The notes under the pieces were generated by a model. The model was not told the origin of the DNA. It searched no databases and saw only the letters and a list, made by a program, of their open reading frames with translations. The position numbers and the translations under genes were made by a program. A stretch of 57,108 nucleotides of DNA from Clostridia bacterium (GTDB lineage Bacteria; Bacillota; Clostridia; Oscillospirales; Acutalibacteraceae): positions 1 to 57,108 of the forward strand of contig JAFSDM010000023.1 in the NCBI GenBank assembly GCA_017436225.1. Reading direction: 5' to 3'. How positions within the stretch are numbered: position 1 is the stretch's first letter; each line of letters starts with the position of its first letter. Shown in pieces: positions 6 to 43,631 of the stretch.

Positions 6-1643
6 ATGCCGAATTTAAAAGAAGCATATGATATTCTTTTTAGTGAAGAAAATCCCCACATAAAAAAGGTGCCATTCGATAGCTTTTACGTTGACCTTTG
101 CCACCGAATAAGGCACGGTACCGCCGCCGCAGTTTTAAACCATTCTTCGGTTTGCATAGCCTCACACATAACAAGCGATGCCGCCGTAATTAGCGGTGTT
201 GCTACAAAAAAGAACTCTCGCAAAACGGGAAGCGGAAGTGAAGCTTTAAATTCCCTTTGCGAAAACTTAGATGGGCGAAAAATTTTCGTCGCCGCAGAAG
301 CTTCTGTTACTCCCTTTTACATAAAAAACGGATTTGAAGCTTGCGGCAAAACGGCAATTTACAGTATAAAGGAATTAAGAAATATGTTAGATTTTTTTAA
401 TATATCCGAAAGGCTTTGCGAGTTAGATGAAAAAGCACTGAAGATTTGCAAATCAGCCTTTGAAAAAATAGACAGTATTACAGAGTATAATCAGCTTAAG
501 GTTTTAAGGGCTTTTATTAACGGCAGAGTTAGCGAAAGCAACTTTAATGTGACCACAGGCTACGGATACGGTGACAAGGGCAGAGATGATTTAGATAAAA
601 TCCTAGCCGAAATTTTAGGCGCAGAGGACGCTTTAATCCGCCACTCCTTTGCAAGCGGCACCCACACCCTTACCGTTGCGCTTTTTGGAGTGCTTCGCCC
701 CGGTGATAAAATGCTTTGCGTGACCGGCAGACCATACGACACCCTTATTGGCGTTCTTGGTTGTGATGAAAAGGTTGATGGCTCACTTGCAGATTTTGGC
801 GTAGAATACAAAGAAGTTGCCTTAAACAGTGACGGTATGCCCGACCTTTTAGCTATTGAAAAGGCGGTAAAGGCGGAAAATCCAAAAATGGTATATATTC
901 AGCGTTCGCGCGGATATTCTCTTCGCCCAAGTTTAAGGGTTGCAGATATTGAAAAAATTTGCAAAGCTGTTCGCGCGACGGGTAGCGATGCCATAATTAT
1001 GGTGGATAACTGCTACGGCGAATTTGTAGAAAAAACTGAGCCTACCGAGGTTGGCGCAGATTTAATTGCAGGCTCACTTATTAAAAATCCGGGTGGCGGC
1101 ATTGCTCCATCGGGCGGATATATTGCAGGTAGAGCGGATTTGGTAGAAAAATGCGCATTCCGTATGACAGCCCCCGGTGTCGGTAGAGAGGTTGGTGCAT
1201 CACTTGGGCACAATCGTGAGCTTTATATGGGGATTTTTAACGCGCCGCACATTACGGGCGAAGCCTTAAAGGCGGCGGTTTATGCATCGGCGCTATTTAC
1301 CGAAATGGGCTTTGGCGTTACCCCCGTTTTAAACGAAGACCGAGCTGATATTATTCAGGCAATTTTGCTGGAGAGAAGTGACCGACTTATAGCCTTCTGC
1401 AAGGGACTTCAAAGCGGAGCACCTGTTGACTCACACCTGACCCCTGAGCCTTGGGATATGCCCGGTTATGATGATCAGGTTATTATGGCGGCAGGCGCAT
1501 TTACCTTAGGTTCTTCAATAGAGCTTTCGGCAGACGCCCCACTCAGAGAACCCTTTGCAGTTTGGATGCAGGGCGGACTTAACTTCCACACCGCTAGAGC
1601 AGGTATTTTAATGGCGGCTGAAGAGGTTTTAAAGTGCCCTTGA
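6..1643 (+). CDS. GNAT acetyltransferase domain fused to YnbB/methionine-gamma-lyase-family PLP enzyme
   Basis: Two domains lie in one open frame. Residues 1-125 look like a GNAT acetyltransferase: an acetyl-CoA motif RKTGSGSEAL near residue 73 and a motif-B-like FYIKNGFEACGK near 104. Residues 127-545 are a complete YnbB-type ('aluminium resistance', Met_gamma_lyase family) fold-type I PLP enzyme, beginning with the family's usual start region (FNISERL, YNQLKVLRAF) and carrying the probable PLP lysine in SLIKNPGGG. The substrate of this family is not firmly known; C-S lyase activity is the family annotation. No stop precedes position 6, so the GNAT part may start upstream of the window. An ATG at 384 preceded by AAAGGA could also start the PLP enzyme alone. 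The fusion is seen directly; whether one or two products are made is inference. Confidence 0.8.
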   Translation: MPNLKEAYDILFSEENPHIKKVPFDSFYVDLCHRIRHGTAAAVLNHSSVCIASHITSDAAVISGVATKKNSRKTGSGSEALNSLCENLDGRKIFVAAEASVTPFYIKNGFEACGKTAIYSIKELRNMLDFFNISERLCELDEKALKICKSAFEKIDSITEYNQLKVLRAFINGRVSESNFNVTTGYGYGDKGRDDLDKILAEILGAEDALIRHSFASGTHTLTVALFGVLRPGDKMLCVTGRPYDTLIGVLGCDEKVDGSLADFGVEYKEVALNSDGMPDLLAIEKAVKAENPKMVYIQRSRGYSLRPSLRVADIEKICKAVRATGSDAIIMVDNCYGEFVEKTEPTEVGADLIAGSLIKNPGGGIAPSGGYIAGRADLVEKCAFRMTAPGVGREVGASLGHNRELYMGIFNAPHITGEALKAAVYASALFTEMGFGVTPVLNEDRADIIQAILLERSDRLIAFCKGLQSGAPVDSHLTPEPWDMPGYDDQVIMAAGAFTLGSSIELSADAPLREPFAVWMQGGLNFHTARAGILMAAEEVLKCP

Positions 1644-1668
1644 CTTTGAGCAAAAATTGTTTTATAAT
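1640..1668 (+). promoter_or_regulatory. SigA-type promoter of the first PHP gene
   Basis: TTGACT at 1640-1645, a 17-bp spacer, then TATAAT at 1663-1668. The TGA stop codon of the preceding gene lies inside the -35 hexamer. Confidence 0.75.
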
Positions 1669-1721
1669 CATTTTATTAATGCTTTAAATATGCCTTATTT
1701 AAGCAAATTTAGGTGGTATTT

Positions 1722-2453
1722 ATGTATAGATACGAAACTCATCTTCATACAAGCCCTGCCAGTAAATGTGCATCTGCAACTGTAAAAGAATCTCTTGAAT
1801 TTTACAAGTCGCTAGGCTATGACGGAGTTTTTATAACCAACCATTATACTAAGGTTAAAAATTCAAAATTCCCCGATATGACACAAGAAGAATTTATACA
1901 TTTTTTCTTTAAAGATTATGAAGATGCTCTGTCTTTGTCTAGGAAAATTGGAATTAAGGTTTTTCCGGGAGCGGAACTAAGTTTCGAAGGCAATCATTTT
2001 TTAGTTTTGGGGCTTGATAAAGACTGGTTCCTTGCCCACCCTGAACTTAGGGAAATGAAGTTCTCAGATATGCTTAACCTTATGCGTGAAGAAGGGGCAT
2101 TTGTTAGCCATGCCCACCCCTTTGACGAGCGAGGATTTATTAACCACATAAAGCTTATGCCAAGGTGCGTAGATGCGGTTGAAGTAATAAACGTTCAAAA
2201 AAACCCATTTCAAAATGCTATGGCGAATTTTTACGCCGATGCTTACGGGCTTTTAAAAACTGCAGGCTCAGACAATCACATTGCAGGAAAGAGTAAAAAA
2301 CTTGCAGGTATTCAGTGCGAAGAGCCCATTGAAAGCGTTGCCGATTTTATTGAAAAGGCAAAAGCTGGTAAAATCTCTATTTTCCAAATTGAGAGAGAAG
2401 ATAGAGAGTCGGAATTTAAAGATGTTTCAATAGAATTTCAAAAACTACCTTAA
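1722..2453 (+). CDS. PHP-domain metal-dependent phosphoesterase (paralogue 1)
   Basis: A 243-aa single-domain PHP protein. The metal ligands of the family are visible in order: HLH near residue 6, TNH near 43, a G-x-E-L glutamate near 85, SHAHP near 130 and SDNH near 180. Such proteins hydrolyse phosphate esters or small nucleotides with three metals in the cytoplasm; the substrate cannot be told. The start is the ATG at 1722 after AGGTGG; the GTG at 1713 overlaps that ribosome site and is unlikely. It has its own promoter and a close paralogue at 8536, so the family was duplicated locally or both copies were kept for different substrates. Confidence 0.85.
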   Translation: MYRYETHLHTSPASKCASATVKESLEFYKSLGYDGVFITNHYTKVKNSKFPDMTQEEFIHFFFKDYEDALSLSRKIGIKVFPGAELSFEGNHFLVLGLDKDWFLAHPELREMKFSDMLNLMREEGAFVSHAHPFDERGFINHIKLMPRCVDAVEVINVQKNPFQNAMANFYADAYGLLKTAGSDNHIAGKSKKLAGIQCEEPIESVADFIEKAKAGKISIFQIEREDRESEFKDVSIEFQKLP

Positions 2454-2525: not shown

Positions 2526-3596
2526 ATGTTAGATATTAAATTCAAAAAAGCAGAAGTTTTAAAAGAAAAACCCGCAAAGGGTCAGCCCTTAGGCTTCGGT
2601 AAAATTTTTACCGACTATATGTTCACAATGCAGTACACCGAGGGCAAGGGTTGGCACGACCCCGTTATTGAGCCATACCACAATTTAAGCCTTTCCCCCG
2701 CTTCTATGGTTTTCCACTACGGTCAGGAAATGTTTGAAGGTCTTAAGGCTTATAAGGGCGAAGACGGGAAGGTTTACTTATTCCGTCCCGAAATGAACGC
2801 AAGGCGTGCAAACCGCTCTAACGACCGCCTTTGCATCCCCAATATCCCCGAAGAAGATTTTGTTCAAGCCGTTAGTGAGCTTGTAAGCGTTGAGCGTGAT
2901 TGGATTCCCGAAGATGAGGGCACTTCCCTTTACATTCGCCCATTTGTAATTGCTACAGATGATTTTCTTGGTGTTGCTCCTTCTAAAACATATATGTTTA
3001 TTGTTATTCTTTCACCAAGCGGCGCCTACTATGCAAGCGGTCTTGCACCTGTTGGCATTTGGATTGAAGATGAGTACGTTCGCGCAGTTAAGGGCGGCAC
3101 CGGCTTTGCAAAAACGGGCGGTAACTATGCTTCCAGTCTTATTGCTCAGGTTAAGGCTCACGATGAAGGCTTTTCTCAGGTGCTTTGGCTTGACGGTGTT
3201 GAGCGCAAGTACATTGAAGAAGTTGGCGCAATGAACATCTTCTTTAAAATTGACGGCAAGGTTATTACCCCCGCTATTAACGGCAGTATTTTACCCGGTG
3301 TAACCCGTGATTCTGTTATAAATCTTGTTAAATCTTGGGGCGTTGAAGTGGAAGAGCGCAAAATTTCTGTTGATGAACTTTTAGAAGCTCACAAAAACGG
3401 CTCCTTAGAAGAAGTTTTTGGTACAGGTACTGCGGCAGTTATCTCCCCTGTTGGTAAACTCCGCTATGTTGATGACGTTATGACCATTGGTGATGGCGGC
3501 ATTGGCGAGCTTAGCCAAAAAATTTACGATACCATTACAGGTATTCAGTGGGGCAAGCTTGATGACCCATTCGGTTGGAGAGTTGAAGTTAAATAA
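2526..3596 (+). CDS. ilvE: Branched-chain amino acid aminotransferase
   Basis: A 356-aa fold-type IV PLP aminotransferase that interconverts valine, leucine and isoleucine with their 2-oxo acids using glutamate/2-oxoglutarate. Family marks include GQEMFEGLKAY near residue 70, the PLP lysine region around GTGFAKTGGNYASS near 195, EEVGAMNIFF near 238 and GTGTAAVISPVG near 310. The start is the ATG at 2526 behind AGGAG; the earlier GTG at 2517 lies in that site. Single gene with a strong terminator just downstream. Length is normal for the bacterial enzyme. Confidence 0.95.
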   Translation: MLDIKFKKAEVLKEKPAKGQPLGFGKIFTDYMFTMQYTEGKGWHDPVIEPYHNLSLSPASMVFHYGQEMFEGLKAYKGEDGKVYLFRPEMNARRANRSNDRLCIPNIPEEDFVQAVSELVSVERDWIPEDEGTSLYIRPFVIATDDFLGVAPSKTYMFIVILSPSGAYYASGLAPVGIWIEDEYVRAVKGGTGFAKTGGNYASSLIAQVKAHDEGFSQVLWLDGVERKYIEEVGAMNIFFKIDGKVITPAINGSILPGVTRDSVINLVKSWGVEVEERKISVDELLEAHKNGSLEEVFGTGTAAVISPVGKLRYVDDVMTIGDGGIGELSQKIYDTITGIQWGKLDDPFGWRVEVK

Positions 3597-7557: not shown

Positions 7558-7902
7558 ATGAAAGTAAGAATTCCAAATCAAGGTCCCAGCAGAAACGATA
7601 TGTTAAAACAGGTTCAAAAAATGCAGGAGGATATGGCAAATCTTCAAGAAGATTTAGATGCCAGAGAGTATACCGCAACTTCCGGCGGCGGAATGATTTC
7701 TGTTACTGTGAACGGTAAGCACGAAATTACCGAGCTTAAAATTAATCCCGACGCAATTGACCCTGAAGAGCCCGAAATGCTTGAAGACCTTATTACCGTC
7801 GCTATTAACGAAGCAATTGCAACCGCTACCAAAACTTCTGAAGATGAAATGGGCGCCATCACCGGCGGTCTTAACATTCCCGGTATGCCCGGACTCTTTT
7901 AA
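7558..7902 (+). CDS. ebfC: YbaB/EbfC nucleoid-associated protein
   Basis: A 114-aa small DNA-binding dimer. It shows the family's N-terminal coiled region ([19 protein letters not shown]), then [20 protein letters not shown] and the acidic helix [12 protein letters not shown]. It lies 15 nt after dnaX and 2 nt before recR, the conserved trio in Firmicutes. Confidence 0.93.
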
Positions 7903-7904
7903 TT

Positions 7905-8507
7905 ATGGCTTACCACGTAGCCCCGCTTGACAAGCTCGTAGAGCAGTTTGAGCGTCTGCCCGGCATTGGCAAAAAAACTGCGGGCAGGCTTGCCTACCAT
8001 ATTTTATCTCGCAGTGACGCCGAGGCAAAAGCCTTTTCAGATGCGATTATTGAGGCTAAACAAAAAATTCGCTACTGCAAATGCTGTCAAAATCTAACCG
8101 AGCTTGAGCTTTGCCCCATCTGCACCGATGCGGACAGAGACAGAAGTTTTATTTGTGTGGTTGAAGACCCTCGTGATGTTATGGCGTTTGAGCGTACAAG
8201 AGAATATAACGGTCTTTACCACGTGCTTCACGGAGTTATTTCCCCAATGGACGGTATAGGTCCCGACAGCTTGCATATAAAGGAGCTTATGGCACGCCTT
8301 GCCGATAGCGAAATAAAGGAAATTATTATGGCAACCAACCCCACCGTTGAGGGTGAGGCAACCGCCAGCTATATCTCCCGACTAATTCGCCCTATGGGAA
8401 TTAAGGTAACAAGACTTGCCTACGGCATACCTGTTGGCGGTGATTTGGAATACGCCGATGAAATAACCCTTTCGCGCGCGCTTGAAGGCAGAAATGAAAT
8501 AAAATAA
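7905..8507 (+). CDS. recR: Recombination mediator RecR
   Basis: A 200-aa RecR. An N-terminal helix-hairpin-helix ([17 protein letters not shown], residues 18-34), a four-cysteine zinc finger ([16 protein letters not shown], about 57-72), then a Toprim domain beginning [11 protein letters not shown] and ending [17 protein letters not shown]. It helps load RecA in gap repair. The ATG is 2 nt past the ebfC stop with only a weak ribosome site, which suggests translational coupling. Confidence 0.96.
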
Positions 8508-8535
8508 CAAAATTTCTTAAAAGGAAATGATGAAA

Positions 8536-9246
8536 ATGTACAGATACGAAACTCATTTACACACTTTTCCTGTAAGCCGTTGCGCAAAAGCGAGTGTTGA
8601 AGAAAGTCTTAGATTTTACAAATCAATCGGATATGACGGTGTTTTTGTTACTAATCATTTCGTTGATGGAAACATAAATATAGACAAAGCTCTACCCTAT
8701 GAGGAGCAAATTAACTTTTATTTTTCCGACTATGAAAAAGCTTTAGAATTAAGCGAAGAAATTGGCATAAAGGTCTTTTTAGGCATAGAGCTTAGCTATA
8801 AAGGCACCGACTTTTTGGTTTACGGACTTGACAAAAAGTGGTTTTTATCTCACCCTGAAATTACCGCTATGAAAAAAAGCGACGAACTTAAGCTTATGAT
8901 TGAAAACGGTGCCCTTATTTTTCAGGCTCACCCCTTTAGAAATGGCGGTTATATTGACCATATCCGCCTTTACCCACACTGCGTTCACGGTGTTGAAATT
9001 ATTAACGCCGCTCGCCCTTTGCCTGAAAATGATATAGCAAAGCTTTACTGCAAACACTATAATCTTATTGAGTTTGCAGGCTCTGATAACCACACGGCAT
9101 CCAAACGAAGCTCATTAGCAGGTGTTTGTACCAAAGAGCCCGTTTTAAGCGTTGAGGATTTCATAGAAAAGGTTAAAAACAAAGAAACCGAAATTTTCCA
9201 TATTAAGGAAGATGAAATCAATAAGCTTCGCGAAGCAAATCTTTAA
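8536..9246 (+). CDS. PHP-domain metal-dependent phosphoesterase (paralogue 2)
   Basis: A paralogue of the protein at 1722, about the same length, with the same opening (MYRYETHLHT) and the same metal-ligand series: HLH, TNH, G-x-E-L, QAHP and SDNH. The frame also has ATGs at 8527 and 8530; 8536 matches the paralogue's start and lies about 10 nt after AAGGA. It follows recR by 28 nt and is probably cotranscribed. The substrate is unknown. AHP here is preceded by phenylalanine-glutamine instead of valine-serine, so active-site surroundings differ. Confidence 0.85.
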   Translation: MYRYETHLHTFPVSRCAKASVEESLRFYKSIGYDGVFVTNHFVDGNINIDKALPYEEQINFYFSDYEKALELSEEIGIKVFLGIELSYKGTDFLVYGLDKKWFLSHPEITAMKKSDELKLMIENGALIFQAHPFRNGGYIDHIRLYPHCVHGVEIINAARPLPENDIAKLYCKHYNLIEFAGSDNHTASKRSSLAGVCTKEPVLSVEDFIEKVKNKETEIFHIKEDEINKLREANL

Positions 9247-11760: not shown

Positions 11761-13053
11761 ATGTATGAAGAAATAGTTAAACTTGTTGATGATGTAACTC
11801 CCGAAATGATTGCTATACGCAGGGATTTTCATAAACACGCCGAAGTGGGTTGGACCGAAATGCGCACCGCTTCCTTAATTGCAAGAAAGCTTTCCGACCT
11901 TGGCTATGAGGTGCTTATTGGCAAAGAGGTTTGCGATGCCGAGTCACGCGCCAATTTGCCGTCTGAAGAGGAGTTGGAAGAGGCTTATAACCGCGCCATC
12001 GCACAGGGTGCCGACCCCGAATTTGTTAAGGCTACCAAGGGCGGCTTTACAAGTGTTGTTGGTATTCTTCACTGTGGCGAAGGCCCTACCGTTGCCGTTC
12101 GTTTTGATATTGACGCGCTTTATATAACCGAAACAGAAAACGAAAATCACTTCCCAAATAAAGAGGGTTTTGCTTCTATTAATAAAGGTCAAATGCACGC
12201 CTGCGGTCACGATTGCCACGCGGCATCCGGCCTTGGTCTTGCTAAAGTATTAATGCAGATTAAAGATAGACTAAAAGGTACCGTAAAGCTTGTTTTCCAA
12301 CCTGCCGAAGAAGGCGGTCAGGGTGGTAAAGCAATCACCGAAAGTGGAATTTTAGATGACGTTAACTTCCTTTTTGGTGCCCATAATACTGATATGGGCG
12401 GAAATTTTGAAGTTCTGCCCGGTCTTTTAGGCTCTATGGCCGCCCGTAAATGCGACGCTGTTTTTAAAGGCAAATCTGCCCACGCGGGTATTGCTCCACA
12501 CCTTGGCAACAACGCTTTGCTTGCCGCCGCTACCGCGGTTCAGAGTCTACACGCTATTCCACGTCACGGTAGGGGCGCAACCCGAATTAACGTTGGCAAG
12601 TTTGTTGCGGGTACCACCCGAAACGTAATTGCAGACCACGCTTATATGGGGCTCGATATACGTGGCGAAACATCTGAGCTTAATGAATATATGAACAAAA
12701 AGGTTAAAACCGTGCTTGAGGCATCGGCTATGATGTACGGCTGCACTGTAGAATATATTCAAAAAGGCTATTTGCCTTCGGTTATTTCTGATTTTCCGTT
12801 TGCCGAAAGATTAGGCGAAATTTGTAATAAGTATTTGGGCTACAGAGTTCATAAAATGGTTATGAACAGCGGCTCAGAAGACATTTCATATATGATGGAC
12901 CGAGTTAAAAGTCTGGGCGGTCAAACAACCTTTATGGGCTTCCACAGTAAATTTGCCTCTAATAACCACTCACCCGAATTTGATTTAAACGAAGATTATT
13001 TACAAAGAAGCGTAAAGGCTTTTGCCGTAATACTTTGCGAGCTTATGAAATAA
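11761..13053 (+). CDS. abgA: M20 amidohydrolase, AbgA-like (p-aminobenzoyl-glutamate hydrolase type)
   Basis: A 430-aa M20D peptidase. Zinc ligands and catalytic residues are in HACGHDCHAA (near residue 142), the PAEEGGQGG stretch near 182 and the dimerisation lid KSAHAGIAPHLGNNAL near 238. The N-terminal RRDFHKHAEVGWTE and an inserted ~50-aa segment containing LPSEEELEEAY match AbgA rather than the shorter IAA-amino-acid hydrolases, so cleavage of folate breakdown products is the best guess. No abgB/abgT neighbour is present, so the natural substrate is uncertain. Ribosome site AAAGGTGG. Confidence 0.82.
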   Translation: MYEEIVKLVDDVTPEMIAIRRDFHKHAEVGWTEMRTASLIARKLSDLGYEVLIGKEVCDAESRANLPSEEELEEAYNRAIAQGADPEFVKATKGGFTSVVGILHCGEGPTVAVRFDIDALYITETENENHFPNKEGFASINKGQMHACGHDCHAASGLGLAKVLMQIKDRLKGTVKLVFQPAEEGGQGGKAITESGILDDVNFLFGAHNTDMGGNFEVLPGLLGSMAARKCDAVFKGKSAHAGIAPHLGNNALLAAATAVQSLHAIPRHGRGATRINVGKFVAGTTRNVIADHAYMGLDIRGETSELNEYMNKKVKTVLEASAMMYGCTVEYIQKGYLPSVISDFPFAERLGEICNKYLGYRVHKMVMNSGSEDISYMMDRVKSLGGQTTFMGFHSKFASNNHSPEFDLNEDYLQRSVKAFAVILCELMK

Positions 13054-13063
13054 TAAAAAACTG

Positions 13064-13105
13064 ACAGACGGCAGAGTTTTAAAATACTCTGCCGTCTGTG
13101 CTTTT
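13064..13105 (+). terminator. Terminator shared by abgA and the binding-protein gene
   Basis: Fourteen-bp perfect stem (13064-13077 with 13086-13099), then GCTTTTTAATT on plus, and a T-run on minus. Confidence 0.9.
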
Positions 13106-13117
13106 TAATTTAAAAAA

Positions 13118-14566
13118 TTATTTAATTTTAGCAAGATCTTTATTTGCGCGAACAATAGAAGAACTGATTTCGCTACCAACCTGATTAAGTACGGAAGTGA
13201 CTCTTTGAGGGTCTGCGCCCACAAGAGCGTTACAAACGGTTTTGTAGGTGGTAGAATCAACGTAGTCAGAAACACCGGAACCATACATAATAGATTTCTT
13301 AGCAGAAGAGCTAGTTACAGTGTTGAATACTTCTTTGAAGTTATCGTTGTAGAAGGTAGAATCAAAATCAAACTCACTGGTATCAAGGAAATATCGCAGG
13401 AAGTAAGCTGCGCCCTTAGCGTTTTTAGCATTCTTAGGAACTCCCCAAGTCTTAGGTTTAACGGGGGTGTAGGCGGTTCCTCCCTTAGGGCCTGCTACAG
13501 GCACAGCTCTAAGGGTTGCGCCAACACTTTCATTATACCAATTGCCCTCTTTATAAAGGCCGTAAGTAATTGCGGTATTAAGTGCGCTTTTACCGGTTAC
13601 AACATCGTTAATATTCCAAACACCAATTAAGTTTTCAGAATTAAGTGTAGCAACCTCTGCCCAAGCGCTTGTAAGAAGCGACCCGCTTGTAGCCCCGCTA
13701 GCAAGATTGTTAAATTGTGAGCCGTCATAGGAAACAAAATCCTGCCCCGCAGAGTGCATAAATACGTCAGAGGATTGATACTCAAGACCAACCTTACCGG
13801 CTGCTTTAGCCTTGCGCATAATTTCTTCTTGAGTTTCCCAGTTCCATTTACCTTGCTTATAAAGGTCATAAGGCATAGTGGTTACGCCTATGCTCTTAAG
13901 AAGCTGAGGATTGTAATAGGTTACATAGTTAAGGTCTTCGCAGGACCAAGATTTAGGCATTGCAACGCCAAAGTAACGACCATTTATTTTATATGCATCC
14001 ATATATTGCTTATTCCAACAATCAGAATTAAGTTGGAACATTTCTGTATCTAAGGGTTGCATAGCCTTGATAGCAAGACCGGGGAAGGAGCCGGTAGAAA
14101 GATATACTATATCGGGAGCATCGCTGCTTGTAATCATACTAACAAGCTTATTAGCATAGTCTTTCTCAGCAATAAGAGTAGTTTTAACCTTAACGTCGGT
14201 AAGCTGCTCATACTGTTTAATTAAAAGCTCCTCGGATTCGTGCCAGTTTCTATTCATAAGCACGTGAACAGAGCCCGTAGGTGCGTTTTGGTATATGTTA
14301 TCTTCATTGGCGTTATCAAAATCATCATAGGTTTGATCCGAGCCTGATTCAGAAGACACTGATTCGGTGAAAGAAGGAACGCCTAATTCAACATCCCACC
14401 CTGCAAGATACTGCGCAAGATGAGTTAAATCGGTAAGGTCTATTACTCCATCACCATTAGTATCGCCAACCTGAATACTAGAGGTTGCCTGAGCGTAAAA
14501 GCCCGATAACGCAATGGTTATGGCAAGTGAAACCGATAAAGCCACCATTAAAATTTTGTTTTTCAT
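13118..14566 (-). CDS. Secreted extracellular solute-binding protein with N-terminal half-dockerin
   Basis: A 482-aa protein. Residues 1-28 are a type I signal peptide ending in AQA with no lipobox cysteine. Residues 34-57 form one dockerin/EF-hand-like repeat with calcium ligands D35, N37, D39, D43 and D46 followed by LTHLAQYLAGW. Residues 62-96 are an acidic Ser-rich linker. The rest is a family-1-type ABC sugar/oligomer-binding fold (PDIVYLS, FGVAMPKSW, WNWETQEEIM). Only one of the two dockerin repeats is present. No permease or ATPase gene is nearby, so it is an orphan component. Ligand unknown; carbohydrate is a family-based guess. Confidence 0.85.
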   Translation of the reverse strand: MKNKILMVALSVSLAITIALSGFYAQATSSIQVGDTNGDGVIDLTDLTHLAQYLAGWDVELGVPSFTESVSSESGSDQTYDDFDNANEDNIYQNAPTGSVHVLMNRNWHESEELLIKQYEQLTDVKVKTTLIAEKDYANKLVSMITSSDAPDIVYLSTGSFPGLAIKAMQPLDTEMFQLNSDCWNKQYMDAYKINGRYFGVAMPKSWSCEDLNYVTYYNPQLLKSIGVTTMPYDLYKQGKWNWETQEEIMRKAKAAGKVGLEYQSSDVFMHSAGQDFVSYDGSQFNNLASGATSGSLLTSAWAEVATLNSENLIGVWNINDVVTGKSALNTAITYGLYKEGNWYNESVGATLRAVPVAGPKGGTAYTPVKPKTWGVPKNAKNAKGAAYFLRYFLDTSEFDFDSTFYNDNFKEVFNTVTSSSAKKSIMYGSGVSDYVDSTTYKTVCNALVGADPQRVTSVLNQVGSEISSSIVRANKDLAKIK

Positions 14567-14598
14567 ACTCTTAAACTCCTTTGGAAATTTGCAAAATA

Positions 14599-14644
14599 AT
14601 TATAACAATTTAATATCTGTAAGTCAATATATCTGTAAGTCAAT
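14599..14644 (-). promoter_or_regulatory. Promoter of the binding-protein gene with a duplicated -35 box
   Basis: Minus strand TTGACT (14622-14627), 17-bp spacer, TATAAT (14599-14604). The 16-bp segment 14613-14628 is perfectly repeated in tandem at 14629-14644, giving a second TTGACT 16 bp further upstream. Confidence 0.78.
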
Positions 14645-14738
14645 TTTAAAATTTAAATAAAAAATAGCATCAAGCCTTGCAATATATAGCAAAAACTGTT
14701 ATTATTAAGTGTATTACATAGCATAAAGGAGAATTTTT

Positions 14739-16031
14739 ATGAAATTCGTAGCAGCGGGCGATATGCTAGTTCAACAGCGTATTCAGCACAATTATCCGGG
14801 GTTTGATGAATTATCCCCCTTTATAAAGGATGCTGACGGTAGATTTTTTAATTTAGAAACAACCCTTAACCACGAGGGCGAGGCATCCGTTTCCCAGCTT
14901 AGCGGCGGCACCTATTTGCGTGTTGACCCCGAAGTGCTTGACGATTTAAAGCCTTTTGGATTTAATATGATGTCCTTTAATAACAACCACACCTTAGACT
15001 TTTTTTATGATGGTTTAGAAGCTACATTAAAGGCGGCAGACGCAAGCGGGCTTGTGCACGCAGGCGTTGGTAGAAATTTAGCCGAAGCATCTGCGCCTAA
15101 ATATTTAAGCACCCCAAATGGTCGCGTTGCTTTAATCAGCGTTAATTTTGCCTTCACTCCCGATATGCTGGCGGGTGAGCAAACACCCAGAATAAAGGGT
15201 CGCCCCGGTATTAACGGCGTTGGCACCTACAGTTACATAGAGCTACCACAGGAGCAGTTGGAGTTAGTTGGAAAAATAGCCGATGAATGCGGTGTTAACG
15301 ACCGTTGGGTAATTGGCAGAGCAGAGGGTTATGCCCCCGCCGCCAAAAAGGATGAATTCCAGTTTGGTAGTTATGTGTTAAAGGTTGGCGACACTCCCCG
15401 CGTTGTACAAAAGCTAAACGAAAAGGATATGGCGCGTGTTGAAAAAGCCATTTATGAGGCAAGTCTTCAAGCCGATTACATTATGGTTTCGGTTCACCTG
15501 CACGACGTTAGCGGTTTAAACAAAGCAAACGTACCTGAATATTTAAAGGAATTTGCCCACCGCTGCATTGATAAGGGCGCACACGCTATTGTTGGTCACG
15601 GTCCGCACCTACTCAGAGCTATTGAAGTTTATAAAGATTGCCCCATTTTCTATTCATTGGGCGACTTTGCTATGCAGCTTTACAGCGTACCCTTCGCACC
15701 CGAAGAATTTTTCTCAAAATACGGCTTAAGCGCCGCAACCGATACCGTTCACGGTCTGCTTAAAAAACGCTCCAAGGATTTCACAATCGGACTTATGGAA
15801 GATTGGAAAATGTGCCGCGCCGTTATGCCTTGTTGGGAGACCGAAGGCACAAAGCTTAAAAAATTAACCTTAGTACCTGTGGAATTGCCAATGGATTGCA
15901 TTAAGGCAGAGTGGGGTCTGCCACGCTTTAGTAAAGATGAAAGAATTTTTGAAATGCTTAATGAGCTTTGCCCACCATACGGTGTAACCGTAGAAATGAA
16001 TGAGGACGGCACCATTGAGTGTAAATGGTAA
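14739..16031 (+). CDS. CapA-family metallophosphatase-fold protein
   Basis: A 430-aa CapA/PgsA-like calcineurin-fold protein. Metal-site elements in order: AAGDMLV near residue 4, FFNLETTL near 46, FNNNHTLDF near 82, SVHLHD near 250 and VGHGPHLL near 285. CapA proteins are linked to poly-gamma-glutamate synthesis or to unknown phosphoester hydrolysis. There is no signal peptide or membrane anchor and no capB/capC neighbour, so a cytoplasmic, non-capsular role is more likely here. Ribosome site AAAGGAG. Confidence 0.85.
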   Translation: MKFVAAGDMLVQQRIQHNYPGFDELSPFIKDADGRFFNLETTLNHEGEASVSQLSGGTYLRVDPEVLDDLKPFGFNMMSFNNNHTLDFFYDGLEATLKAADASGLVHAGVGRNLAEASAPKYLSTPNGRVALISVNFAFTPDMLAGEQTPRIKGRPGINGVGTYSYIELPQEQLELVGKIADECGVNDRWVIGRAEGYAPAAKKDEFQFGSYVLKVGDTPRVVQKLNEKDMARVEKAIYEASLQADYIMVSVHLHDVSGLNKANVPEYLKEFAHRCIDKGAHAIVGHGPHLLRAIEVYKDCPIFYSLGDFAMQLYSVPFAPEEFFSKYGLSAATDTVHGLLKKRSKDFTIGLMEDWKMCRAVMPCWETEGTKLKKLTLVPVELPMDCIKAEWGLPRFSKDERIFEMLNELCPPYGVTVEMNEDGTIECKW

Positions 16032-39538: not shown

Positions 39539-39591
39539 AACGAGGCTATATTAAATCCAAAACACTATCCCGCAATGTATCAAGCTTCAGA

Positions 39592-39795
39592 CCTACCTTC
39601 CCTGTTCGCGGACCGTGGTTAATTATAACCCTACAACCTTTTAATAGGGGACCTTTCTCCCGCGGCGGGCTTGCAGACCTCCCGACACTGTCTTTGAGCA
39701 GTGCTCGGAAGAAGGGAGCGCGAAACCGTGGGGCGGCCACCCACCTGCTTATTTTTGCAGGTTATCAATTGCCATTTACGGCAGGGAGGGTTTTA
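39592..39795 (+). ncRNA. ssrS: Probable 6S RNA
   Basis: A ~200-nt rod. The closing stem ACCTTCCCTG (39595-39604) pairs with CAGGGAGGGT (39782-39791). Next CCGTGG...AATT...TAACC pairs with GGTTA...AATT...CCA...ACGG. A central bubble follows, then a tip hairpin CCGACACTG/CAGTGCTCGG. On the 3' side of the bubble is a small hairpin ACCTGC/GCAGGT after CCACCCACC. CCCTGTTCGC near the 5' end resembles the conserved CUG-UGUUCGC of 6S. A terminator follows at 39804. I saw no clear promoter. Identification by fold and these motifs, not by search. Confidence 0.62.
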
Positions 39796-39803
39796 AAAAA
39801 AGC

Positions 39804-39842
39804 AAAAGGAATTGTCTATAACAGACAATTCCTTTTTATTTT
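39804..39842 (+). terminator. Terminator after the 6S-like RNA, shared with the minus strand
   Basis: Fourteen-bp stem 39804-39817 with 39823-39836, then TTATTTTA; on minus it also ends in a T-rich run after the small CDS. Confidence 0.85.
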
Positions 39843-39855
39843 ACATTATTAAAAA

Positions 39856-40026
39856 TTATTCGGCTACATCTAAAAGCTCGTCGGGGTCGCACTCACAGTC
39901 GCACTCGATATAATCTAAATCTTTTTTAGTGTTAAGATAACGATTTACGAAAACTGCTACGCCTGCTGCCATAGCTACAACGGCAATAGCTGCTGTAACA
40001 ATCCACATAAGAGTTCTGAATTTCAT
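39856..40026 (-). CDS. Tiny membrane protein with an acidic Cys tail (56 aa)
   Basis: A 56-aa ORF: MKFRTLMW, one transmembrane helix (IVTAAIAVVAMAAGVAVFV), then NRYLNTKKDLDYIE and the tail CDCECDPDELLDVAE with three cysteines. A good site GGAGG is 9 nt before the ATG. It lies about 95 nt after the DUF4956 gene on the same strand, so it may be the last gene of the CotH-VTC cluster. Unknown function; the clustered Cys/Asp could bind metal, which is only a guess. Confidence 0.6.
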   Translation of the reverse strand: MKFRTLMWIVTAAIAVVAMAAGVAVFVNRYLNTKKDLDYIECDCECDPDELLDVAE

Positions 40027-40121
40027 ACAAAACAACCTCCCAAAAGTGTTATTTTAAAATCTTATTTATTTTATTATACCCCAATTTTTCTACAATGTCA
40101 ATTGCTTTGTTGGCGGTAAAA

Positions 40122-40787
40122 TTAAAGCTCTTCCTTGCCGTAGGCGGGAAGTGTGCAAACAATATCTAAATTTCCGTTTCTGCAACGAAGCTCATCCATA
40201 AACTGCTTGGTTTTATTTACATCGCGAAGCCTAACCTTATAAACCAATTGAAAAAGACTGCCCATATTAACGGTGCGAACGCGAACAAGCTCATTAAATG
40301 AGGTGTATTTTTTCATAAGGTCATCAAAAAGATTGGTGTAATCAATATTTTCGGGAATGGTGATTTTAAGCTCGCGGTCGGCAGATTTTGCCTTGCCAAA
40401 GCCCACCAAAGTATAAAAAAGGGTAAAAACAACCATTATTGCGGTGAAAATTGCCGCTACCCATATAAATCCCATACCTGTTGCAAGACCAACAGCCATA
40501 CTTAAAAATACGCTGCCGATTTCCCTTGCGTTGCCCGGTACAGAACGAAATCTTACAAGGTTAAATGCGCCCGCAACAGCAACACCAACACCGATATTTC
40601 CGTTTACCATCATAATTATCATTTGAACGATGGCGGGCAAAAGGGCTAGTGTTACCACGAAGCTTTTTGAATACTGACTGCGGAACATATAGCTGATTGC
40701 AATAACGGCGCCCAGAAAAAGTGATGCCAAAACGCAAACAAAAAAGGTTCCGGAAGTTATACCTGTTTCAATAATTGAATTAAACAT
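40122..40787 (-). CDS. DUF4956 membrane protein
   Basis: A 221-aa protein with about four helices (residues 15-35, 44-60, 64-78 and 95-130), GNIGVGVAVAGAFNLVRFRS and GNAREIGSVFLSMAVGLATGMG, then a soluble C-terminal domain. This is the DUF4956 pattern, regularly encoded beside VTC-type polyphosphate polymerases. It overlaps nothing and lies 5 nt after the VTC gene. Role unknown; possibly a membrane partner of the polymerase. Confidence 0.88.
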   Translation of the reverse strand: MFNSIIETGITSGTFFVCVLASLFLGAVIAISYMFRSQYSKSFVVTLALLPAIVQMIIMMVNGNIGVGVAVAGAFNLVRFRSVPGNAREIGSVFLSMAVGLATGMGFIWVAAIFTAIMVVFTLFYTLVGFGKAKSADRELKITIPENIDYTNLFDDLMKKYTSFNELVRVRTVNMGSLFQLVYKVRLRDVNKTKQFMDELRCRNGNLDIVCTLPAYGKEEL

Positions 40788-40792
40788 ATTTA

Positions 40793-41506
40793 TTACCTCC
40801 CAAAGGTGACTTCTTTTACAAAATCTAAAAAGGCTCTGCCATATTTAGAAAAGGATCTTGGAAAAATATTAAGCTCGCTTAGGGTGTGGGCAAGCCAAAC
40901 GGGGAATGTGCCCGAAATTTTTATTTCAAGCAGTCTTTGATTTTCACCAATTATCCTCTCTCCATACGCGCCCAGCGTTAAATCCAAATCATCTCTTCGC
41001 CAAAAAAGATCCTTATCCACTGTTATGCGAAGCTCGGGGTCGACGGTATCAAAAAAAGCGGTGCGGGTATAAAAAAGGGCGGTGGACGGGGCTATTCCCT
41101 CATAGCTTTTTAAGAACCAGTCAAGCTCATTTTTAACCTGACCTTCAACATCGGTTTCTCCCGTTTTAAGATAATCTACCGCCTTTTTGTAGGTGGTATC
41201 TATACGCCTTTTATAAACAATTTTTGCAACCTTTTTTTTAATTTCTATAAAGGCGAGCGAATCTTTATTAGGCACGCCGTAGCACCTTATCCTTAGCTTC
41301 TCCTTATATTTAGGTTTGTCTAACGAACGGCGGATTAAAAGATAATCGGGTGTATCATAATACAGGTTGCAAATTACCGTTTCGCCGTATTCGTCGGGTC
41401 GCATACGGTCGCCGATTTTTTCAAAAAGGGCGTCTGCCTGCTCGGCGGTAATTAAATATTTTTTCTCATATCGCCTGAAGGTATGTATCATTTTCACCTT
41501 TGCCAA
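40793..41506 (-). CDS. VTC-domain polyphosphate polymerase-like protein
   Basis: A 237-aa VTC domain. RRYEKKYLI near residue 11, KEKLRIRCYG near 70 (basic pair), FIEIKKKVAKIVYKRR near 86, and LLEIKISGTFP near 200 (catalytic Glu region) match the tunnel of yeast Vtc4, which makes polyphosphate from ATP. No SPX domain. It probably acts on the cytoplasmic side with the DUF4956 partner. Start at TTG 41506 or ATG 41491; the second follows AAAGGTG closely, so the start is uncertain. Confidence 0.85.
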   Translation of the reverse strand: MAKVKMIHTFRRYEKKYLITAEQADALFEKIGDRMRPDEYGETVICNLYYDTPDYLLIRRSLDKPKYKEKLRIRCYGVPNKDSLAFIEIKKKVAKIVYKRRIDTTYKKAVDYLKTGETDVEGQVKNELDWFLKSYEGIAPSTALFYTRTAFFDTVDPELRITVDKDLFWRRDDLDLTLGAYGERIIGENQRLLEIKISGTFPVWLAHTLSELNIFPRSFSKYGRAFLDFVKEVTFGR

Positions 41507-41550
41507 GCCACATCGCCCCCTTTAAATTTTATTGTTGCTTTGCTACGACT

Positions 41551-43566
41551 TTACCATTTGCCGATTTTGCTATTCATATAAGCTATTCTGCCTTCAACAA
41601 ACTCGCTTAAATATTCTACCTGACCTGCATATTTGGTAATCTTTTCGGTGGAATACGCATAGGTATGATCGGCATAATCAGTAATACTCCAAAGCTCAAA
41701 GTTCACTGCTTGAGCTTTATTAAGAAGCTTTGCGGTGTCATCAATAAAGTCTAAAAGTGTTGGAATTTTCTTTTTGGCGTTGTTCCAAACTTTTTTCGCT
41801 ACTGCCCTGAACTCAGGCATTGAAACCAACTTCTTAAACCATGCAGTTTCATCCAGATAGGTTTTGTTTATGTGCTTTTCGTTAGCATATTTACCATTAC
41901 CAAAGCCAAGGTCAAAGTCCCAAACAGGTCCCATTTTAAGCTTGCCGCCGGCATCCTTATACATATAGCAAGAGGCGTGGAGCTTTGAGTCGGTATTCAT
42001 TGCAAGTTCTTCTACAATATACCACTTTGCCATAGCTTCCATATCCATATATTTTGCGGCTTGATTATAGTTTCCGCTTTTTAAAGCCGCCTCGGTTTTG
42101 TTCATATAGTCATATATGTAATTCAGATATTCTAACTGTTTTTTCTCATTAAGCTTAGTGAGCTTGGTATCAGATGGCTTTGTGATGGTATAAATTGCAC
42201 CATTATAAACGGGAGAAGAGTAGAAAATATCTCCGCTTATGGGGTCGTAGGTGAAGTGGTCGCCAATGCTAACCCATTTTGACGGACGGTCGACATCAAC
42301 GCCGTTTGTCCACTGATAAAACTCCTCGGGTTTATTGTGACCTGTGGCCTCAATAATATAGCCAACCTTATCGGGTGCGAGCTTTGAATCAAAATCGGCA
42401 ATATCAATTCTGTTTTTGCTTACCTCAATTTTTTCAATAAGCTGATAGTTGCCCGCGTAGATTCCGTTTACCCATAAATCAACAAATCTAACATCCATAA
42501 TCGCTTCGGCGCCAAGCATACGCGAAAGCTCCATTGCCACTGCGTTACGCATAAGTGAGCGATCGGCAAAGTTGGCGGAAAGCACCCACTCCTTATGAGC
42601 AGGAAGTCCCAGCATAGACTGCTTTTTATCAAACTTTAAGGTATAGCCCTTTTTGGGATAATAGTACCAGCTGGTCCAACCACGGCCCTTGATTTGAGCC
42701 GTTCCGGATATAGACTGATTTTTGCCAAAGGAATAATTGCCGTTTGCGGTGTTTCCTCCACCCGCAAAAACGTTACACTTTTTATATTCTGTTTTGCTTA
42801 AAATATCTTGATTATCATTAGTGGTGATAGACATTGAAGGAAGACCTGTATTAAGGGTCATAATATAAACGGTGAATTTGGTTCGCTTATTTCCCTTTAC
42901 AACGGTAAGCTCAACGGGAACGGTGAAGTTAAAGCCCGCCTGACCGCTTTTAATTTCACTGTTTCCGTAAAGAATTTTGTCGGCGTTAATGGTAAATTCG
43001 GGAACTAAAGCGTGAATTTGAGTACCTGCGGGTAAAAGCGCAGTGATTTCATTGCCCGAAATGTTACACTCTACCGAAAACGAAAGGGATGGGTTTGTTT
43101 CCTTCATAAGAACAAACTCACTGATTAAACCATCCTCTACGCCGCCTGTTCTTTCGATAATCGGCCAACCTGCATTCATCTGATTGGGTGAAAGAACCGG
43201 CCATTTAATGTTTGCGGCGTTTTTGGTTTTATCGGCACTGGAGCTCCAGCCCTTTGGATTATTTAAAACCTTAACGTTCGTAGCAGGCTTTGAAGGTGTG
43301 GTTGTTGTGGTGCCGCCACCGTTGCTACCAATACTTGTCTGCTCATCTGTGTTGTAATCATCTTCAAGACCAATACTTGTCTGCTCATCATCTTCAAGAT
43401 CTATGAGTTCATTAGCCCAATCAGGTATAGAGCTGTTACTTTCACTGCTTGATTGAAAAACAGTTTCCACAATCTCGGGTCTGGTTGCAAAGGCAATGGT
43501 TATAGCTATGGAAATAACCAAAGATGCCGCTACAATACCCAGCAATATTTTTCTTTGCGGTCTCAT
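41551..43566 (-). CDS. CotH kinase family protein, secreted/membrane-anchored
   Basis: A 671-aa protein: signal-anchor (about 7-27), low-complexity linker to about 95 with a repeated DEQTSIG unit and a Thr/Gly run, a beta-rich domain to about 270, then a CotH kinase domain with KGRGWTSWYYYPKKGY, LRN-type and GPVWDFDLGFGN motifs. CotH phosphorylates spore coat proteins in Bacillus; similar proteins in non-coat contexts occur beside VTC and DUF4956 genes, as here. It heads that cluster and has its own promoter. Confidence 0.87.
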   Translation of the reverse strand: MRPQRKILLGIVAASLVISIAITIAFATRPEIVETVFQSSSESNSSIPDWANELIDLEDDEQTSIGLEDDYNTDEQTSIGSNGGGTTTTTPSKPATNVKVLNNPKGWSSSADKTKNAANIKWPVLSPNQMNAGWPIIERTGGVEDGLISEFVLMKETNPSLSFSVECNISGNEITALLPAGTQIHALVPEFTINADKILYGNSEIKSGQAGFNFTVPVELTVVKGNKRTKFTVYIMTLNTGLPSMSITTNDNQDILSKTEYKKCNVFAGGGNTANGNYSFGKNQSISGTAQIKGRGWTSWYYYPKKGYTLKFDKKQSMLGLPAHKEWVLSANFADRSLMRNAVAMELSRMLGAEAIMDVRFVDLWVNGIYAGNYQLIEKIEVSKNRIDIADFDSKLAPDKVGYIIEATGHNKPEEFYQWTNGVDVDRPSKWVSIGDHFTYDPISGDIFYSSPVYNGAIYTITKPSDTKLTKLNEKKQLEYLNYIYDYMNKTEAALKSGNYNQAAKYMDMEAMAKWYIVEELAMNTDSKLHASCYMYKDAGGKLKMGPVWDFDLGFGNGKYANEKHINKTYLDETAWFKKLVSMPEFRAVAKKVWNNAKKKIPTLLDFIDDTAKLLNKAQAVNFELWSITDYADHTYAYSTEKITKYAGQVEYLSEFVEGRIAYMNSKIGKW

Positions 43567-43602: not shown

Positions 43603-43631
43603 ATACTATCACATTTTTACATCCTTGTCTA
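43603..43631 (-). promoter_or_regulatory. Promoter of the CotH-VTC cluster
   Basis: Minus strand TAGACA (43626-43631), 17-bp spacer, TAGTAT (43603-43608). Moderate match. Confidence 0.6.

Follow-up and report, generated by a model that had tools for sequence, protein, structure and literature searches.

Three adjacent genes of a Clostridia bacterium, encoding a CotH-family kinase-like protein, a VTC polyphosphate (polyP) polymerase-domain protein and a DUF4956 membrane protein, may together form a trans-membrane polyP module with a surface partner, in which VTC would be cytosolic, DUF4956 would lie in the membrane and CotH outside; we put the probability of this reading at roughly one half. 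The genes lie in a stretch of 57,108 nucleotides (contig JAFSDM010000023.1 of assembly GCA_017436225.1, hereafter the window) from a genome that is 88% complete. They are real genes in a tight run on one strand, identified as open reading frames (ORFs) with Pfam matches:

41551..43566, minus strand, CotH-family kinase-like protein of 671 amino acids (aa) (ORF and Pfam PF08757)
40793..41491, minus strand, protein with a VTC polyP-polymerase domain of the triphosphate tunnel metalloenzyme (TTM) type (ORF and Pfam PF09359)
40122..40787, minus strand, DUF4956 membrane protein with about four transmembrane (TM) segments and a C-terminal soluble part (ORF and Pfam, E 5.7e-14)

In the proposed scheme, cytosolic VTC would polymerise phosphate from ATP into polyP, as suggested by its kept catalytic residues. 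DUF4956 would be the membrane partner of VTC, standing in for the TM portion of the VTC complex of eukaryotes and moving or tethering the chain; strict pairing and topology point to this partnership, with translocation being guessed by analogy. Extracytoplasmic CotH would then work with the module, needing or using its product, as its co-occurrence and export segments suggest, and polyP could donate the phosphate, be bound as a ligand or form part of a modified surface polymer. The surface lipoprotein Cthe_2159 would be an alternative outside partner in related systems, and the window copy would represent a Cthe_2159-lineage core with an upstream CotH and no Cthe_2159. If true, the triad would offer a concrete model for the phosphorylation of proteins or polymers outside the membrane, where ATP is scarce, DUF4956 would gain a function, and prokaryotes would have a counterpart to the VTC machine that both makes and translocates polyP. 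An earlier note on this DNA had tied an exported kinase to polyP synthesis; this idea gained support from the kept Vtc4 residues, the VTC-DUF4956 pairing and the 19/20 export-type CotH genomes described below.

The window CotH matched PF08757 with E 1e-40 and 140.7 bits (cut-off 23.8), and had a hydrophobic N-terminal export/anchor segment (residues 7 to 25), followed by a Ser/acidic linker and the CotH domain (residues 294 to 664). Two Asp residues, D526 and D550, which we take to be the catalytic Asp, were invariant in 19/19 aligned CotH proteins. A weak alignment (E 0.022) paired them with Asp of the Bacillus spore-coat kinase CotH (PDB 5jd9); the two proteins have the CotH domain in common, but the window protein differs in its export/anchor segment, its long N-terminal region and its VTC-DUF4956 company. 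For VTC (PF09359, E 1.2e-38, 133.4 bits, cut-off 23), the likely start was the ATG at 41491 after AAAGGTG, with the ORF extending back to a TTG at 41506 and stopping at 40793, and 5 bases separate its end from the start of DUF4956. Hydropathy (19-residue window, start codons picked by a simple rule) detected no TM segment in VTC, about four in DUF4956 and one, at the N-terminus, in CotH. G73, R79, R81 and G100 of DUF4956 were invariant in 76 aligned proteins, and R79 and R81, which sit between hydrophobic segments 2 and 3, are probably on the cytosolic side.

To place these genes in context, we compared 60 genomes of relatives, 159 genomes of the phylum and 14 control genomes (genomes are numbered G and loci L), with adjacency in the relatives and the phylum sample worked out manually from gene coordinates. 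VTC and DUF4956 form a single unit. Both were found in the same 22/159 phylum genomes, at 27 places each, and 26/27 pairs lay within about 3 kb on one contig, the odd pair (G117) being near the starts of two contigs. Among the relatives, VTC occurred at 44 places, spread over 34 genomes, and DUF4956 at 45, spread over 35, with DUF4956 adjoining 43/44 VTC places; the exception was a VTC fragment (G054:C23). No gene fusions among VTC, DUF4956, CotH, Cthe_2159 and a small neighbouring gene were seen in the ORFs matched by the profiles. The strict co-occurrence of VTC and DUF4956 across the phylum sample is new here, as is the apparent keeping of Vtc4 catalytic residues read from the VTC alignments.

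Since TTM folds carry several activities, VTC may instead be another TTM enzyme, e.g., a triphosphatase, with polyP not involved. Such a reading could draw on the weak single-sequence similarity to yeast Vtc4 (E 0.038), but the VTC profile matched Vtc4 with E 1.2e-14, the tunnel residues were kept and the Pfam VTC match was strong (E given above), which makes it very improbable. The equivalents of Vtc4 K200, R264, R266, K281, R361, R373, E426, K428, S457 and K458 were invariant in 25/25 and in 74/74 VTC proteins (the latter being the 76 found minus 2 fragments or cut sequences), corresponding in the window to K16, R72, R74, K90, R148, R160, E194, K196, S220 and K221, where the E194, K196, S220 and K221 part (Vtc4 E426-K428-S457-K458) rests on a sub-threshold second alignment stretch. 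The Vtc4 offset of 185 (initially 188) was set so as to agree with the numbering in PMC9911596 and with further known Vtc4 positions. R264, R266 and E426 have been mutated to inactivate VTC, and the eukaryotic VTC complex (Vtc1/Vtc3/Vtc4) couples polyP synthesis to translocation (PMC9911596; papers cited by PMC number are represented here by the parts of their text that were covered). The window system resembles this complex in that a TTM polymerase domain, predicted to be cytosolic and sharing its catalytic residues, goes with a membrane partner, but VTC has neither an SPX domain nor a fused TM domain, a separate DUF4956 of about four TM segments replaces the 3-TM subunits, and the membrane is bacterial, not vacuolar.

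We then asked how CotH is distributed relative to VTC. In the phylum sample, CotH was found in 23 genomes, VTC in 22 and both in 20, with CotH but no VTC in G126, G172 and G186. An export segment was sought in all 32 listed CotH genes besides that of the window, by hydropathy upstream of the CotH domain (15-residue window, value of at least about 2). Genomes with an export-type CotH were VTC-positive in 19/20 cases, compared to 3/139 of the others (G049, G080 and G121; Fisher 1.7e-20, a value that ignores kinship). The 19 genomes span 13 family codes, and the association therefore does not stem from one clade. It is new here, and a broader signal than the literature found reports. Three genes (G153:C80, G182:C118 and G050:C6) were scored over the whole upstream frame; two copies fell below the mark (1.34 in L183, whose start is cut off by the end of its contig, and 1.84 in L184), their genomes holding other copies above it; and G116:C21, with an in-frame stop, was unused, copy C27 of the same genome being export-type. 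G172 and G186 had only a CotH of about 365 aa with no export segment, which we label spore-type from what we take to be the length of the Bacillus CotH protein. Few genomes underlie this contrast of export-type and non-export CotH.

A similar picture was seen among the relatives, where CotH was present in 26/34 VTC genomes compared to 2/26 others (Fisher 6.5e-8, again ignoring kinship), and all 26 were read as having at least one export-segment CotH, although for G019 this depends on residues 84 to 102, which are hydrophobic, in an over-extended ORF. Export-type CotH genes distant from VTC were found in G008, G010, G027, G052, G054, G055 and G057. Both VTC-negative relatives with CotH held damaged genes. 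In G007, a member of the window's genus whose genome is 96% complete with no VTC or DUF4956 match, a lipoprotein-signal ORF (L125:7342-7590) is followed by the CotH ORF (7620-9182) in another frame, which may reflect either decay in the absence of VTC or a fault in the assembly. G045 (L171, about 483-1848, minus strand) retained only the second half of the CotH domain, behind response-regulator sequence, and this could be an assembly error. The association of Cthe_2159 with VTC was weaker (26/34 vs 7/26, p 2e-4); G026, one of the 7 VTC-negative genomes with Cthe_2159, had DUF4956 on a 3.2-kb contig. Among the controls, Corynebacterium glutamicum and Methanosarcina acetivorans had CotH, VTC and DUF4956, Bacillus subtilis had CotH only, and Bacteroides ihuae had VTC and DUF4956 without CotH.

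The core pair turned out to have two alternative partners. In the relatives, CotH lay near 19 of the 44 VTC places and Cthe_2159 near 19 (3 of these near both), while 9 were near neither, some of the latter being cut by contig ends; this is a less biased count than that from our 35 named loci, which are matches to the window DUF4956 and hence biased to clade II as defined below. Four genomes (G017, G019, G033 and G035) carried one copy each of the CotH-type and the Cthe_2159-type locus. In a tree built from 73 pairs of VTC and DUF4956, concatenated (a quick method with SH-aLRT branch support only, omitting L074, L076, L122, L123 and L124, which were cut at contig ends or missed VTC or DUF4956), clade I with 21 rows separated from clade II with 52. 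Clade I comprised 14 rows with CotH, 7 with no partner seen and 0 with Cthe_2159, and clade II 41 with Cthe_2159, 3 with both, 3 with CotH only and 5 with none; our home-made CotH profile misses genes found by Pfam and so undercounts CotH, and L110 and L115 were labelled via Pfam. Partner labels were strongly clustered on the tree, with 13 changes compared to a shuffled mean of 29.1 and 0/200 shuffles as low; such counts do not separate gain from loss. This split into CotH- and Cthe_2159-partnered lineages is new here. The window pair fell in the Cthe_2159-partnered clade II (branch support 100 SH-aLRT), while L084, which has CotH as well as Cthe_2159, diverges close to the base of this clade. 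On the simplest reading, CotH joined a Cthe_2159-type core in the window's genus, and did so independently in L071. Within 6 kb of VTC-DUF4956, mostly in clade II, we also noted OmpR-type response regulators at 27 loci and histidine kinases at 25 (e.g., L064:11425-13454), counted from similarity clusters so that any such pair counts.

The association of cotH, VTC and DUF4956 is already published for Gram-positive bacteria, in which they accompany Pel loci as accessory genes. In streptococci and clostridia, according to PMC7112168, pelDEADAFG is directly joined by cotH, a poly-phosphate polymerase (which we take as the VTC family), DUF4956 and DUF4832, and CotH is proposed there as a possible regulator of Pel through phosphorylation. 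The statement in the earlier note that these families recur together, with their joint role unsettled, thus holds, the recurrence being partly published. It could be hypothesized from this work that the three genes are an exopolysaccharide accessory, with CotH regulating or modifying a Pel-type system by phosphorylation, VTC-DUF4956 supplying or tuning it, and polyP not exported. Genes for PelG, a PelF-like glycosyltransferase and DUF2194 did adjoin VTC-DUF4956 in L113, L119 and L120 (loci whose ORF starts were over-extended), with DUF4832 in L120 only and EAL/GGDEF genes in L119. Across the stretches examined, however, Pel-type genes stood beside 3/21 clade I loci and 0/52 clade II loci, no Pel-type gene matched in the window and no PelG match was found in its 88%-complete genome. 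The window thus shares the same three contiguous families with the Pel loci but differs in lacking Pel genes and in having a VTC-DUF4956 pair of the other, mostly Cthe_2159-partnered lineage, and we consider an exopolysaccharide role for the window genes rather unlikely.

Another possibility is that VTC-DUF4956 makes polyP as an intracellular store, with DUF4956 as a mere anchor and CotH and Cthe_2159 as unrelated surface neighbours sharing a habitat. CotH and Cthe_2159 both occur in plant-fibre degraders. The window genome also had no PPK1 match, so that VTC may be its polyP synthase. Against such a store, the two unrelated partners are both exported and both tightly linked to VTC-DUF4956, PPK1 was also present in 9/22 VTC genomes, and export-type CotH tracked VTC far more closely than it tracked PPK1 in the equivalent test (6/20 vs 19/139, p 0.09). 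We therefore regard it as unlikely.

Returning to the trans-membrane module with a surface partner, several observations weigh against it. VTC and PPK1 were themselves associated (9/22 vs 16/137, p 0.0018), a result that also fits the intracellular store. Gene linkage explains most of the co-occurrence of CotH and VTC, and a common way of life could account for the remainder; in favour of the module, CotH was unlinked to VTC in 4/19 genomes (G068, G117, G182 and G208), the last three belonging to one genus code. G126 (93% complete, 200 contigs) had an export-type, lipoprotein-like CotH with no VTC match, the three genomes G049, G080 and G121 had VTC without an export-type CotH, and 8/34 VTC genomes among the relatives were without CotH. 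Non-export CotH was also seen in VTC genomes, as the only CotH (about 365 aa) in G121 and as one copy beside an export-type copy in G196. Clade II is mostly found with Cthe_2159, and CotH is therefore not the general client. Finally, DUF4956 had no solved-structure match (none with the profile, and chance level only, E 0.87, with the single sequence), and its role in translocation is a guess. A relationship of DUF4956 to MgtC/SapB is suggestive only: the Pfam MgtC match overlapped it below cut-off (E 3.5e-4 at G047:C9, E 0.43 for the window protein), and hhalign gave a probability of 56%.

Given that ATP is scarce outside the cell, exported CotH kinases could putatively use polyP, made by VTC and passed by DUF4956, as phosphate donor. 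Export-type CotH would then be expected to be nearly confined to VTC genomes, while non-export CotH, with ATP at hand, could lack VTC, as is the case in G172, G186 and B. subtilis. This donor step is speculative and we hold it to be somewhat improbable; alternatives to it are a link through shared habitat or a function in polysaccharide systems, each of them doubtful as well. Among the matches listed in the open literature (titles and abstract starts), no paper tied CotH to polyP as a donor and none gave a function for DUF4956. VTC was treated as a eukaryotic polymerase in PMC12526157 and PMC10657179, with bacterial VTC not discussed in the parts covered. VTC and CotH genes also share one locus, NELoc-2, in Clostridium perfringens (PMC2879425, PMC11677781), which differs from the window in being larger and strain-variable and in that DUF4956 is not named in the parts covered; PMC2879425 labels the proteins of 222-226 aa next to VTC as tubulin/FtsZ GTPases, and these are, at a guess, DUF4956.

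The earlier note had described a single four-gene cluster, in which CotH, VTC and DUF4956 were joined by a small Cys-rich membrane protein and served by one promoter before cotH. The adjacency of the first three on the minus strand stands, and a 56-aa one-helix protein does follow DUF4956 on the same strand, but the small gene proved to be a separate unit. The features around the operon are as follows:

43603..43631, minus strand, weak candidate cotH promoter TAGACA-17-TAGTAT (9/12), with TG before the -10
40102..40121, minus strand, site at which, by comparison, a Cthe_2159 lipoprotein gene stands in L043 and L044 but is missing in the window and L042
40073..40101, minus strand, sigma-70 promoter of the small gene, TTGACA-N17-TATAAT (12/12, promoter scan)
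39856..40026, minus strand, ORF of the 56-aa one-helix protein with a YIEC-x-C tail, a neighbour of the cluster, not a member
39804..39836, hairpin resembling a terminator in both directions (T-runs on either strand), for the small gene and for the convergent 6S RNA
39591..39796, plus strand, 6S RNA (Rfam RF00013, 49 bits, gathering score 46.4), which points towards the small gene and lies outside the cluster

The promoter evidence ran counter to a single promoter before cotH. The cotH site was conserved only in part among 4 genus members, and promoter-like sites in the region (15 observed) were about as many as in shuffles (14.2). The 12/12 promoter instead lies between DUF4956 and the small gene, and its TTGACA and TATAAT with 17-base spacing were identical in 6/6 genus members aligned (the window and five relatives, two of the six having no VTC, DUF4956 or CotH match), with upstream genes that varied: DUF4956 in the window and L042, Cthe_2159 in L043 and L044, and unrelated genes in L077 and L078. 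Small-gene matches were found in 10/60 genomes, of which G055 was discounted (a 24-residue match within a 242-residue frame). Of the 9 credible homologues, 4 adjoin the cluster (G000, G003, G004 and G006) and 5 lie away from it (G001, G002, G011, G013 and G024); together with the separate promoter, this refutes its membership by the criteria that the earlier note itself had set. G001 (94% complete) and G002 (87%), both of the window's genus, had the small gene, near a gene that reads as rsmI-like, but no VTC, DUF4956 or CotH match. With its own perfect and conserved promoter and its presence in genomes without the triad, the small gene is therefore an independent unit that merely abuts the operon. 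Since no terminator was predicted between DUF4956 and the small gene, read-through from the operon is possible.

The small gene abuts the operon because the Cthe_2159 gene between them, usually the fourth partner, is absent. In L043 and L044, a Cthe_2159-family lipoprotein gene (PF14262; E 1.1e-75 in L043) stands between DUF4956 and the small gene, and the family had 0 matches in the 88%-complete window genome. As the window, L042, L043 and L044 were mutual nearest kin in the VTC-DUF4956 tree, the simple reading is loss of Cthe_2159 in the window's branch, with gain in L043/L044 as an alternative. Upstream of cotH, the window, L043 and L044 carry a divergent asnB, where L042 has RNase P RNA (3020-3353) immediately upstream.

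The tail CDCECDPDE of the small protein was confirmed in the window. YIEC-x-C was present in 6/8 relatives compared (L079 having YLEC only and L081 neither), and the third tail Cys in 0/8. No Pfam or NCBIfam family matched the protein at cut-off; a FeoB-associated identity (Pfam E 0.11, below cut-off) and TrbK_Ti (the sole NCBIfam match, E 0.055, 13.8 bits vs a cut-off of 50) were rejected. A 6S-like sequence, read from translations, was seen at the matching place in L043 and L044, below the Rfam gathering score. L044 also carried, between a DUF1292 gene and a P-type ATPase gene (11777-15001), DNA methyltransferase-like, restriction-like and helix-turn-helix genes, identified by sequence reading and absent in the window, which looks like an inserted restriction-modification island.

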